Of a stretch of DNA of 12,500 nucleotides, positions 2,094 through 9,872 are shown in pieces. The translations under genes and the position numbers were made by a program. The notes beneath the pieces are model-generated. The model was not told where the DNA came from. It searched no databases and was given only the letters and a program-made list of their open reading frames with translations. Position 1 is the stretch's first letter. Each line of letters starts with the position of its first letter. The stretch is from Salpingoeca rosetta (taxonomy: Eukaryota; Opisthokonta; Choanoflagellata; Craspedida; Salpingoecidae): positions 452,574 through 465,073 of the forward strand of contig NW_004754900.1 in NCBI RefSeq assembly GCF_000188695.1. Reading direction: 5' to 3'.

Positions 2094-4013
2094 ATGGCGA
2101 GCCGTCCTGGGCAGATGCAGAAGCAGCATGCGCACGAGGTGGAGAACAGCGCGGGCGGGTTTGTGTTCAAGGTGAGCGACATGACGCGTGCGCTGCGGTT
2201 CCTCATCCTGGGCTCGGACTCTGGCACGTACTACGCGTCCGCGCGGAAACTGACGCGCGACAACGCGCAGTGCCTGCAGCGGCTGCTGGATGGCGGGCAG
2301 GGCGCGGAGCTGGTGGACCTCGTGCGCACCGTGTCCGTGGAAGGCCGCGCCGCCAAGCAGGACCCGACCCTGTTCGCGCTTGCGCTGTGTGCAAAGCAGG
2401 GCGACACTGCGACGCGCCAGCGCGCGTTCGCCGTGCTGAGCGAGGTGTGCCGCATCCCAACGCACCTGTTCATGTTCCTGGAGTTTTGCCGCCTGTTTGT
2501 GGACGGCAAGGGCTTTGGCCGCGCGCAGCAGCGGGCGGTTGCGGCCTGGTACAACGGCAAGCCCGCGGACAAGCTGGCCCACGCCATGACCAAATACAAG
2601 CAGCGCAACAAGTGGCGCCACGGCGACGTGCTGCGCCTGGCGCACGCCAAGCCCGCGGACGCCGCGCACAACGCCCTGTACGCGTACGCGACCAAAGGCA
2701 AGGATGCCCTCGCGCAGGCGGCGCTATGGACGGAGGACGAGACGACGCGCGAGCTGCACGCGTTCCTCACGGCGCTGCACGGCCTCGCTGCCGAGGAGGA
2801 CGTGGGCAACGTGGTCGCCGCCATTGGCGAGCACGCCCTCGTCCGCGAGCACATCCCCACGCGCTTCCTGTCCTGCAAGCGGGTGTGGCTTGCCATGCTG
2901 CCGGGCATGCCGTTCACGGCGCTGGTGCGCAACCTGGCAACCATGTCCCGCATCGGGCTGTTCCCCACGCCGCCGGAGGACGAAGACGGCGAGCCAGAGC
3001 AGGCGGAGAGCAGCGTGCTGCCTTTGCAGAGGCGCCTGGCAGGCCTGCGCGTGTCCCCACGCTACAACGTGCGGCGCAACCCGCGCCGCAAGTGCGCCAA
3101 GCTGGGCAGCGTCGGTGACGATGGGCGCCGGCGCCACGAGTCGATGGACGACGACGAGGACGAGGACGAGGAGGCGCGCACGAAGCGGGAGGAGAAGCAG
3201 AGGAAGGAGGAGGCAAGGCGAAAGCGCAGGGAGGCCGCGGAGGTGCGTGACCGCATCACCGCTGAGGATCAGCAGCGCGCCCTGGACCTGGTGTGCGAGA
3301 AGCTGGGGGACGAGGCTGCTCTGCGTCGCGCGCGCGTGCACCCGTTCAGCGTGCTGCTTGCGCTCTCCACGTATGCGCAGGGGCAGGGCTTCCGCTCGTC
3401 TGCGGGCGAGTGGACCCCACATCCGCGCGTGATTGCGTCACTGGACCGCGCGTTTGACGCCAGCTTCGCCAACGTGGCGCCCACCAACGAGCGGTACCTG
3501 CTGGCGCTGGACGTGTCCGGGTCCATGAGCGTGCCCATCATGAACTCGCCGCTGACCGCACGTGATGCAACCGCGGCGCTTGCCTGCGTGACGCTGCGCA
3601 CGGAGGAGCACGTGGACGTGGTTGCCTTCTGCCACGAGCTGACACGGCTGGACATTCCGCGCACGGCGCCACTGCAGGAGGTGGTGGAGACGATACAGCA
3701 CCGCAGCTTTGGGCGCACCGACTGCGCCCTGCCCATGCTGTACGCCACGCAGCACAAGATGGACGTGGACGTGTTTGTCGTGTACACGGACAGCGAGACG
3801 TGGTACGGTGGCACGCACCCGTGCGACGCCCTCCGACAGTACCGCGCCACGATGAACAAGCCCAACGCCAAGCTGATTGTGGTTGGCATGACGTCCACGG
3901 GTTTCACCATTGCGGATCCGCGCGACCCGAACATGCTGGACGTGGTTGGCTTTGATGCAAACGCCCCGCTCCTCATGGCTGCTTTTGCTCGCGGCGACCT
4001 GGCGGCGCGCTAA
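2094..4013 (+). CDS. RO60: 60 kDa SS-A/Ro ribonucleoprotein homologue (TROVE + VWA)
   Basis: Ro60 is a ring-shaped RNA-binding protein that holds Y RNAs and misfolded small RNAs. The frame is a single uninterrupted exon of 639 residues. The start at 2094 has A at -3 and G at +4 and begins the protein near the family's usual N-terminus. The TROVE HEAT-repeat region spans about 15-290 and resumes at about 393-460 (CEKL and RARVHPF segments). The C-terminal VWA domain (about 465-625) has an intact metal site: DVSGS at 473-477, T542 and D566. Animal Ro60 is about 540 residues. The excess is a charged insertion at about 290-392 with an acidic run (352-360) followed by a Lys/Arg/Glu-rich segment. 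I saw no Y RNA gene nearby. Being intronless is unusual beside its spliced neighbours. Confidence 0.95.
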   Translation: MASRPGQMQKQHAHEVENSAGGFVFKVSDMTRALRFLILGSDSGTYYASARKLTRDNAQCLQRLLDGGQGAELVDLVRTVSVEGRAAKQDPTLFALALCAKQGDTATRQRAFAVLSEVCRIPTHLFMFLEFCRLFVDGKGFGRAQQRAVAAWYNGKPADKLAHAMTKYKQRNKWRHGDVLRLAHAKPADAAHNALYAYATKGKDALAQAALWTEDETTRELHAFLTALHGLAAEEDVGNVVAAIGEHALVREHIPTRFLSCKRVWLAMLPGMPFTALVRNLATMSRIGLFPTPPEDEDGEPEQAESSVLPLQRRLAGLRVSPRYNVRRNPRRKCAKLGSVGDDGRRRHESMDDDEDEDEEARTKREEKQRKEEARRKRREAAEVRDRITAEDQQRALDLVCEKLGDEAALRRARVHPFSVLLALSTYAQGQGFRSSAGEWTPHPRVIASLDRAFDASFANVAPTNERYLLALDVSGSMSVPIMNSPLTARDATAALACVTLRTEEHVDVVAFCHELTRLDIPRTAPLQEVVETIQHRSFGRTDCALPMLYATQHKMDVDVFVVYTDSETWYGGTHPCDALRQYRATMNKPNAKLIVVGMTSTGFTIADPRDPNMLDVVGFDANAPLLMAAFARGDLAAR

Positions 4014-4042
4014 GGGGCATGTGCTGGTGTGTTTTGGTGTGT

Positions 4043-4044
<2 letters not shown>

Positions 4045-4104
<60 letters not shown>
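4045..4104. repeat. (GTT)20 microsatellite
   Basis: Twenty perfect GTT units begin 31 bp after the Ro60 stop codon, in the presumed 3' UTR or downstream GU-rich region. Confidence 0.95.
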
Positions 4105-4106
<2 letters not shown>

Positions 4107-4137
4107 GTGTGTGTGAATGTAAATTGCGTGCGTGTGA

Positions 4138-4282
<145 letters not shown>

Positions 4283-6420: not shown

Positions 6421-9400
6421 ATGGTAAGTGCACCTGCCTGTGCCTGTGCCTCTGTGCGTGCACACGAGAGCGTGCTTGGGTTTGTGTGGGTGTGTGCAAG
6501 CGAGTGCATCCACAAGCATCCCGCTCTTCTTTATGGGAGGGCGATCTCAAAGACATGTGCATGCACACATGCATATGTGCACATGTGCACATGTGCACAT
6601 ATGCGTTTTCCTCGCGTCGACGATTCTACTGCCACCTTCGGCGGACTTGTGTGCATGCTCGTTTTCCTCCTCTTCCCTTGCCACCAATGTTGATCCTCTC
6701 CTCCACGATTGCACACTCTTCCCTCGTTGTTTTTTTCGCCTTTGCGTCTGCCAACTTGTCTTCATCTGCGATCGCTTTTATGCGCACGCACGTGGTCCAC
6801 CACCACCCAATATGGCATCTGAAAACCGATTTCCTTTTCGTCCCCCTCTTTTCTCTCACCATCCTTCTCTTCTTGACCGTTCCCCTTCTTCGCTCCAACG
6901 CACACACAAACATGCATCAATGGCTGAATCCATCCACCACACCACCCACTCACTCACACACACACTCACACACGCTCGACCCCTACCCCTGCCCCCTTTC
7001 TCTTTCCAAACTCAGGTGCATTTCACAGTGAGCCAGATCCGTGAGATCATGGACAAGCGTCACAACATCCGTAACATGTCTGTGATTGCCCACGTCGATC
7101 ACGGCAAGTCCACCCTCACGGACTCGCTCGTGTCCAAGGCCGGTATCATCGCCGGTGCCAAGGCCGGTGAGACCCGCTTCACGGATACCCGTGCCGATGA
7201 GCAGGAGCGCTGCATCACCATCAAGTCCACCGCCATCTCCCTGTACTACGAGCTTGACGAGAAGGACATGGTCTTCGTCAAGCAGGAGAGCCAGGGCAAC
7301 GCCTTCCTCATCAACCTCATCGACTCCCCCGGGCACGTCGATTTCTCGTCCGAGGTGACGGCCGCCCTCCGCGTCACCGATGGCGCCCTCGTCGTCGTTG
7401 ACTGCGTCTCCGGCGTGTGCGTGCAGACCGAGACTGTGCTTCGCCAGGCCATTGCCGAGCGCATCAAGCCCATCCTCTTCATGAACAAGATGGACCGCGC
7501 TCTCCTCGAGCTCCAGCTGGAGAAGGAGGACCTCTACCAGACGTTCCAGCGCATCGTCGAGAGCGTCAACGTCATCATCGCCACCTACGGTGACGACGAC
7601 GGTCCCATGGGCCCCATCCAGGTCGACGTCGCCAAGGGCACCGTCGGCTTTGGCTCCGGCCTCCACGGCTGGGCCTTCACCCTCAAGCAGTTTGCCGAGA
7701 TGTACTCTGCCAAGTTTGGCATTGACATTGAGAAGATGATGTCCCGCCTCTGGGGCAACCAGTTCTTCAACGCCAAGACCAAGAAGTGGCGCAAGTCCGA
7801 GGGCGACGGCTTCCAGCGTGGCTTCAACATGTTCGTGCTCGACCCCATCTACAAGCTCTTCGACGCCGTCATGAACTTCAAGAAGGACATGACCGCCAAG
7901 CTCATCGAGAAGCTCGACATCAAGCTCCAGGGTGACGAGAAGAGCCTCGAGGGCAAGCCCCTCATGAAGGTCATGATGCGCCGCTGGCTCCCCGCCGGTG
8001 AGGCTCTCCTGCAGATGATTGCCATCCACCTTCCCTCCCCCGTCACCGCCCAGGCCTACCGTATGGAGATGCTCTACGAAGGCCCCCACGACGACGAGGC
8101 CGCCCTTGGCATCAAGAACTGCGACCCCGAGGCCCCTCTGATGATGTACATCTCCAAGATGGTCCCCACCTCCGACAAGGGCCGCTTCTACGCCTTCGGC
8201 CGTGTCTACTCTGGCAAGGTCGCCACCGGCCTCAAGTGCCGCATCATGGGGCCCAACTACGTGCCCGGCAAGAAGGACGATCTCTTCATCAAGAACATCC
8301 AGCGCACCATCCTCATGATGGGCCGCTACATTGAGCCCATTGAGGACGTCCCCGCCGGTAACATTGTCGGTCTCGTCGGCGTCGACCAGTTCCTCGTCAA
8401 GACCGGTACCATCACCACCTCCGATGCCGCCCACAACATGAAGGTCATGAAGTTCTCCGTCTCCCCCGTCGTCCGCGTCGCCGTCGAGGCCAAGAACCCC
8501 TCGGACCTCCCCAAGCTCGTCGAGGGTCTCAAGCGCCTTGCCAAGTCCGACCCCATGGTCCAGTGCATCATCGAGGAGTCTGGCGAGCACATTGTTGCCG
8601 GTGCCGGTGAGCTCCATCTCGAGATTTGCCTCAAGGATCTCGAGGAGGACCACGCCCAGATCCCCATCAAGAAGTCCGAGCCCGTCGTGTCCTACCGCGA
8701 GACCGTCTCCGAGATGTCCAACATCATGTGCCTCTCCAAGTCCCCCAACAAGCACAACCGTCTCTTCATGAAGGCCGAGCCTCTCGCCGAGGGTCTCGCT
8801 GAGGCCATTGAGGACGAGAAGGTCACCTCCAGGCAGGACCCTAAGGAGCGCGCCCGCTACCTCGCCGACAACTTTGAGTGGGACCTCACCGATGCCCGTA
8901 AGATCTGGTGCTTCGGCCCTGAGGGCACTGGCCCCAACGTCGTCGTCGATGTCTCCAAGGGTGTCCAGGTGAGCGCGACTGTGCTATTATTGTTGGATTT
9001 TTTTTTTCGTCAATGCTGTTGTTTGTCTTGCGGCCAGGCCTTCGACTTCACAGTGGTTTCCCTCTCCTCCTGATGATGCACATCATTGATTTACATCTGA
9101 CGTGCGCCTTGTATGGCGTATGGTGATGCTTTATTCAATGTTAAACACTCTAATTTTTTGCTGAGGGGTTGTTGTTATCCGCCATGTTCCTCCACCTCTT
9201 GTTGTTCGGCACTCACACGCGGCATCATCATCCCGCTCATTTGCACTGCAATTTCACTCACTCAAAACCCCATCTCCTTTCTCCCGCTCCCTCTCATTCA
9301 CACAGTACCTGAACGAGATCAAGGACAGCGTCGTCGCTGGTTTCCAGTGGGCCACCAAGGAGGGTGTGCTCGCCGACGAGAACATGCGCGGCATCCGCTT

Positions 9401-9872
9401 CAACATCTACGATGTCACCCTGCACACCGATGCCATCCACCGCGGTGGCGGCCAGATCATCCCCACCGCCCGCCGCTGCATGTACGCGTGCTGCCTCACC
9501 GCCTCTCCCCGCCTCATGGAGCCCGTCTTCCTTGTCGAGATTCAGTGCCCAGAGAACGCCATTGGTGGCATCTACGGTGTCCTCACCCGCCGTCGTGGTC
9601 ACGTCTTCGAGGAGAACCGCGTTGCCGGTACCCCCATGTACAACGTCAAGGCTTACCTGCCCGTCATGGAGTCCTTTGGCTTCGACTCTGCCCTCCGCGC
9701 CGGTACCGGTGGCCAGGCCTTCCCCCAGTGCGTCTTCGATCACTGGCAGGTGCTCACCGCCGATCCTCTCGACCCATCCTCCATTGCCGGTCAGATTGTC
9801 AACAAGTCCCGTACCCGCAAGGGTCTCTCCCCCGAGCCCTTCCCTCTGGACAAGTACTACGACAAGCTCTAA
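6421..9872 (+). CDS. EEF2: Translation elongation factor 2 (eEF2), complete, three exons
   Basis: eEF2 is the cytosolic GTPase that moves tRNA and mRNA through the ribosome. Coding exons are 6421-6423 (ATG only), 7016-8968 and 9306-9872. Donors are GTAAGT and GTGAGC, both acceptors end in AG, and the joints are in phase 0. The product is 840 residues, like yeast eEF2 (842). The start sits in a near-perfect Kozak context (CCGCCACC before ATG, G after). G-domain motifs are intact: AHVDHGKST at 26-34, DSPGH at 104-108 and NKMD at 158-161. T57 in TRFTDTR is the site phosphorylated by eEF2 kinase in animals. H697 in DAIHRGGGQ is the diphthamide histidine. The C-terminus ends DKL. Codon use is strongly C-ending, as expected for a highly expressed gene. 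Intron 2 carries a snoRNA. Confidence 0.98.
6424..7015 (+). other. eEF2 intron 1 (after the ATG codon)
   Basis: This 592-nt intron begins GTAAGT directly after the start codon and ends in a pyrimidine-rich tract and CTCAG before GTG (Val2). It contains the alternating purine-pyrimidine palindrome at 6571-6604, a long C/T-rich middle, and a short CA run at about 6947-6975. I found no paired box C and D in it. Confidence 0.9.
6553..6606. repeat. 54-bp alternating purine-pyrimidine block with a 34-bp perfect palindrome
   Basis: Positions 6553-6606 alternate purine and pyrimidine without a break. Within it 6571-6604 is a perfect palindrome built from CATATG, GTGCAC and CATGTG units. It lies in eEF2 intron 1 and could form a cruciform, Z-DNA or an RNA hairpin. 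Confidence 0.9.
8969..9305 (+). other. eEF2 intron 2, snoRNA host intron
   Basis: A 337-nt GTGAGC...CACAG intron joins GVQ to YLNEIKDS, as eEF2 continuity requires. It holds a T9 run near 8999-9007, the snoRNA at 9066-9169, and a C/T-rich tail. Box D lies about 140 nt from the 3' splice site, farther than the roughly 70-80 nt common in vertebrates. Confidence 0.93.
9066..9169 (+). ncRNA. Box C/D snoRNA guiding 18S rRNA 2'-O-methylation (U36/snR47-type target), in eEF2 intron 2
   Basis: Read from the sequence: box C is cTGATGA at 9070-9076, D' is CTGA at 9097-9100, C' is GTGATGC at 9123-9129, and D is CTGA at 9161-9164. A 4-bp terminal stem pairs 9066-9069 with 9165-9168 (one U-G). The 16 nt at 9144-9159 upstream of box D are complementary to the conserved 18S rRNA segment AAAAAATTAGAGTGTT. 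By the D+5 rule T9156 would select the fourth A of the A6 run. From memory, this segment contains the methylated A guided by human U36 (SNORD36A/B, Am668) and yeast snR47 (Am619). The element lies inside a translation-factor intron, the usual kind of snoRNA host. The D' guide (9081-9096) has no target I recognise. Box C has C instead of the usual purine at its first position. Confidence 0.85.

Follow-up and report, generated by a model that had tools for sequence, protein, structure and literature searches.

An intron of the Salpingoeca rosetta eEF2 gene very probably contains an ordinary box C/D snoRNA. We consider it likely, with a probability of roughly 0.85, that this is a functional intronic snoRNA, released from the eEF2 intron, that guides 2′-O-methylation of A868 in 18S rRNA. 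In the proposed mechanism, the snoRNA would be excised from the eEF2 pre-mRNA intron and would assemble with the usual box C/D core proteins, i.e., 15.5K, Nop56, Nop58, and fibrillarin (a fibrillarin gene is present in the genome); the 16-nt guide beside box D (the D guide) would pair with 18S A865–U880, and this pairing would direct 2′-O-methylation of A868 (yeast A755, approximately human A811). We infer transcription, processing, and A868 methylation from the sequence. The original prediction was of an intronic box C/D snoRNA in eEF2 built for guiding 18S methylation, and the boxes, the stem, and the antisense to the organism's own 18S rRNA bear it out.

The Putative snoRNA and Its Host Intron in eEF2

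The element lies within a window of 12,500 nucleotides (the whole stretch of DNA that was analyzed), in whose coordinates the relevant features are as follows.

6421–6423, 7016–8968, and 9306–9872: eEF2 exons; joined, 840 residues with one terminal stop
8969–9305, + strand: host intron, the second intron of eEF2; phase 0, GTGAGC...CACAG, splitting KGVQ from YLNE
9066–9168, + strand: putative box C/D snoRNA body, with predicted ends, 97 nt past the 5′ splice site and 137 nt ahead of the 3′ splice site
9066–9069, + strand: 5′ arm of the terminal stem, pairing with 9165–9168
9070–9076, + strand: box C, CTGATGA (CUGAUGA); first base C, consensus R
9097–9100, + strand: box D′, CTGA (CUGA); a search with the preceding stretch gave no target in rRNA or U6
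9101–9122, + strand: segment separating D′ from C′, predicted to fold into a hairpin of 8 bp with a 6-nt loop
9123–9129, + strand: box C′, GTGATGC (GUGAUGC); last base off consensus
9144–9159, + strand: D guide, 16 nt, antisense to 18S A865–U880; T9156 lies opposite the predicted methylation target A868
9161–9164, + strand: box D, CTGA (CUGA), separated from the guide by one base (9160)
9165–9168, + strand: 3′ arm of the terminal stem, GGGG

The eEF2 gene carrying the intron is intact, and its exon at 7016–8968 matches solved eEF2 chains (best match 1165 bits). The first eEF2 intron (6424–7015) is long and begins right behind the ATG; in a scan of the CTGA motifs of the window, none within this intron was associated with 11 nt or more of antisense to rRNA. 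Upstream of eEF2 lies a single-exon gene (2094–4013) for a Ro60/TROVE-domain RNA-binding protein of 639 aa, whose best relative among the matches listed is 55% identical. Very long TTG/TG and CA microsatellites occupy 4020–4280 and many further stretches of the window beyond the exons given above. The assignment of the genome to S. rosetta (Choanoflagellata) is very likely and agrees with its rhodopsin gene, in which 346 of 347 aligned residues are those of the PDB 7d7q chain, S. rosetta Rh-PDE.

The order of boxes C, D′, C′, and D and the 4-bp terminal stem, both part of the original prediction, were confirmed at 9066–9168. The element has the sequence attributes expected of the box C/D class: boxes C and D are joined by the terminal stem (with C at the R position of box C), internal boxes D′ and C′ follow in order (the end of C′ being off consensus), and an antisense element of at least 10 nt, here 16 nt and directed at the organism's own 18S rRNA, adjoins box D. 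One of the four base pairs of the terminal stem is a G-U pair, and the spacing from D′ to C′ is 22 nt. The guide (9144–9159) is unpaired in the centroid fold and, with the exception of 9159, also in the MFE fold; the fold has a z-score of −2.2, with 7 of 200 shuffles equally stable, and the duplex of the guide with its 16-nt target has an energy of −16.7 kcal/mol.

The Predicted 18S Target and the Possible Role of the Pairing

All 16 guide nucleotides are complementary to positions 865–880 of the 18S rRNA (numbered on the copy of contig C8, 2,096 nt), and a single nucleotide separates the match from box D. Counting back from box D, the fifth base is T9156, whose partner is A868. In agreement with the original prediction, this adenosine occupies the fourth place in the A6 run, and the predicted target is the fourth A of AAAAAAUUAGAGUGUU. 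Each of the two 18S copies contains the 16-nt word once, although the copies differ in several stretches. These two genes (L009, 4056–6151, and L010, 4742–6844), which are distinguished by substitutions and small indels, are located close to contig ends, approximately 35 kb from the end of C8 and less than 7 kb from the start of C34. The target segment had been described as universally conserved in 18S rRNA; we find it in both copies of this genome and in a provisional yeast 18S segment, which is the extent to which the description holds here.

On this provisional yeast segment, we take the equivalent of A868 to be yeast A755, four bases ahead of Ψ759, and yeast Am619 and Am796 to be the bracketed residues of GCAGUU[A]AAAAGC and AUAUU[A]GCAUGG, respectively. 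The segment was fitted to 11 published modified positions, some of them taken from the available part of a yeast table (PMC5199042); all 11 letters agree at one offset, and 6 agree at the runner-up offset. If Ψ814/815, given for human 18S rRNA in the accessible portion of PMC8351944, are the two U residues behind the A run, the human counterpart of A868 would be approximately A811. The A868 site is predicted to sit in expansion segment 6 (ES6), next to a known pseudouridine site.

Other targets for the two guides were considered. Upstream of box D′, no exact complement of at least 8 nt ending 0–2 nt before the box was found in SSU, 5.8S, LSU, or U6 RNA; looser pairings occur in the rDNA stretch at raw scores of 9 to 10. 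Part of the D guide (9150–9159) could base-pair at 10 positions, including two G-U pairs, with the organism's own U6 (L008) at AGAAGATTAG, likewise ending 1 nt before box D. This pairing would presumably point at A48 in human numbering, whereas the known site is A47; U6 is a possible second target of the D guide.

We regard it as unlikely that the snoRNA is real but that its pairing serves mainly as a chaperone of 18S folding or processing, with A868 unmethylated or partly so. Sixteen perfect pairs are near the long end for guides, for which a range of 10–21 bp is given in the part of PMC2780460 consulted, and the target lies in ES6, where snR30/U17 pairs for 18S processing (PMC8351944, in part). 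Moreover, the rows examined of the yeast table list no 2′-O-methylated residue (Nm) between Am619 and Am796, and thus none at the equivalent base (PMC5199042). Against a role confined to chaperoning, the box D spacing exactly fits the D+5 methylation rule, with the target base paired.

Statistical Support for the Element

To describe the element, we used a descriptor consisting of boxes C and D, a stem of at least 4 bp, and boxes D′ and C′, which was composed after the element had been seen. The full descriptor has a single match in the window (both strands) and matches neither any of 100 one-strand dinucleotide shuffles nor any of 2,000 intron shuffles; when D′ and C′ are dropped, it has two matches in the window versus 0.06 per one-strand shuffle. 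Of the 55 CTGA motifs in the window (both strands), box D alone is preceded, at 0–2 nt, by 11 nt or more of exact complementarity to rRNA or U6, and in a reversed-window control with 23 CTGA motifs the longest such antisense is 8 nt. At the base composition of the window, 0.0036 chance copies of the 16-mer are expected in 54.4 Mb on both strands. A pattern search of the 54.4-Mb genome gave three occurrences of the 18S word AAAAAATTAGAGTGTT, i.e., the two 18S genes and, as antisense, the eEF2 intron.

The same genome search found no guide word outside the rRNA genes besides that in the eEF2 intron, and no further copy of the intron stretch was found. Neither the guide word nor the 18S target word occurs in the viral contigs searched, the guide word is absent from the text of published papers as searched, and its one match in a Bartonella genome was judged to be due to chance. 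It is very unlikely that a chance antisense word lies beside chance boxes, or that the element is a degenerate snoRNA copy that has ceased to be expressed: boxes C and C′ are each off at one base and the descriptor is post hoc, but none of the 2,000 intron shuffles reproduces it, the expected number of word copies in the genome is far below one, and there is no second copy of either the intron stretch or, outside the rRNA genes, the guide word.

Relationship to Known snoRNA Families

In a covariance search, nothing in the window matches Rfam at the gathering score; the best permissive match is a box C/D snoRNA, Afu_298 of A. fumigatus (RF01507; 20.7 and 21.3 bits, E-values of 1.1 and 0.27), which does not reach the gathering threshold of 40 bits. 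A genome-wide search with Afu_298 yielded 11 weak places, all under the cut-off, with the eEF2 intron second. Low Rfam scores are unsurprising in this genome, since its U14 (SNORD14) candidate (L014; G000:C25:965758-965862) is likewise under the cut-off, with 47.1 bits versus 64. This candidate has 13-nt and 11-nt antisense elements to the organism's own 18S rRNA, at 88 and 469; a canonical CUGA was not seen at the place of box D in its sequence.

U36 (SNORD36) and yeast snR47 are likewise box C/D guides for an 18S adenosine, and the original prediction placed the target in the neighborhood of their site and suggested that the guide had moved from RPL7A to eEF2. Their site, Am668/Am619 (PMC8817022, in the part available), lies 193 nt upstream of A868 in this 18S rRNA. 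On the provisional yeast segment, we take it to be the adenosine that follows GCAGTT in AGTTAAAAAGC, which corresponds to A675. The D guide is not complementary to AGUUAAAAAGCUCGUAG of 18S rRNA, the stretch with which a SNORD36 (RF00049) guide would pair, and, with 70 of the 629 candidates scored, no SNORD36-family match was obtained at E-values of 10 or less. Elsewhere in the genome, the exact pattern of a U36-type guide with box D has no match, and the perfect 13-nt U36-type antisense word occurs nowhere beyond the two 18S genes; these searches were for exact words, imperfect or shorter guides being outside their scope. Because the target differs from the U36 site and no U36-type match was found, there is no basis here for the proposed migration from RPL7A to eEF2. 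A relocated S. rosetta homolog of U36/snR47 is therefore almost certainly the wrong reading: a run of A is common to both targets, but the guide complements another stretch, and we excluded the homology on target position (A675 versus A868) and the lack of a SNORD36 match.

Yeast snR53, plant snoR53Y, and Neurospora CD11 are likewise box C/D guides whose target adenosines lie in this part of 18S rRNA (Am796, Am799 or Am801, and Am793, respectively). A homolog of snR53/snoR53Y (Am796/Am801) has next to no probability: the site is nearby, in the same ES6 region, but Am796, once placed by its context on the provisional yeast segment, corresponds to A917 here, 49 nt downstream of A868, and the guide is complementary to 865–880, not to GAUUAGCAUGG. 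A lone snR53-type guide match elsewhere in the genome was rejected and judged to be due to chance, because it has no TGATG within 250 nt upstream and matches no Rfam snoRNA family at E-values up to 1.

Possible Methylation of the Equivalent Base in Other Organisms

The two Nm residues of human ES6 we take to be Cm797 and Um799. Two such residues are given for human ES6 in the available part of PMC8351944, along with five sites in Arabidopsis ES6 that are predicted but unmapped. In the portion of a plant table consulted, no Arabidopsis, tomato, or tobacco site falls at the corresponding position (about 758–760), the closest being 623 and 780; the human column of this table holds only sites common to plants (PMC11542601). 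No matching Nm entry is present in the accessible parts of a Dictyostelium table (PMC8817022) and a Neurospora table (PMC2780460). Dictyostelium 17S Am796 was rejected as a different base, since it lies 468 nt from the Um1264 site, versus 514 nt between A755 and Um1269 in the provisional yeast numbering.

A literature search by site name for Nm at a position of the A755/A811 type returned only a planarian study (PMC11649923). As described in the part of that source available, RiboMeth-seq shows planarian 18S Am755 as fully methylated and planarian-distinct, and the residue is altered by knockdown of either fibrillarin, with RTL-PCR validation lacking (PMC11649923). Planarian Am755 and S. rosetta A868 may be equivalent, since the planarian residue is 511 nt from the Um1266 site, compared with 514 nt from A755 to Um1269 in yeast.

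Choanoflagellates are the sister group of animals, and the predicted A868 mark bears on the gain and loss of rRNA methylations near the origin of animals. In the open-licence literature searched, no paper, judged by titles and listings, describes choanoflagellate or S. rosetta snoRNAs. The guide is directed at an 18S base not listed as methylated in the part of the yeast table consulted (PMC5199042), and it predicts one specific rRNA methylation. Tentatively, and as a possibility that we hold to be doubtful, the mark at yeast A755/approximately human A811 could be an old opisthokont one, lost in yeast and vertebrates and kept in choanoflagellates, Aspergillus (Afu_298), and flatworms.

Comparison with Afu_298 and Human SNORD37

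Afu_298, whose box D reads AUGA in Rfam's consensus, carries AAACACUCUAAUUUUUUG immediately ahead of that box, as does the S. rosetta snoRNA ahead of its own, and the same guide word leads to the same predicted 18S base. The match between the two RNAs rests mostly on the guide and box D, and in one alignment covers those alone; outside them there is scant similarity, such that homology is indistinguishable from a common target. With respect to the host gene, human SNORD37 (U37) is likewise a box C/D snoRNA listed with EEF2 as host, its target being given, in the part of the source available, as 28S A3697 (PMC3766210). Movement of snoRNAs among broadly expressed host genes is argued for in the accessible portion of PMC3511168, and, given this argument and SNORD37 in human EEF2, eEF2 as a host comes as little surprise. 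The human RNA is directed to 28S rRNA, in contrast to the 18S rRNA predicted for the eEF2-intron snoRNA of S. rosetta, which is the usual kind of RNA; what is unusual is its predicted 18S site.
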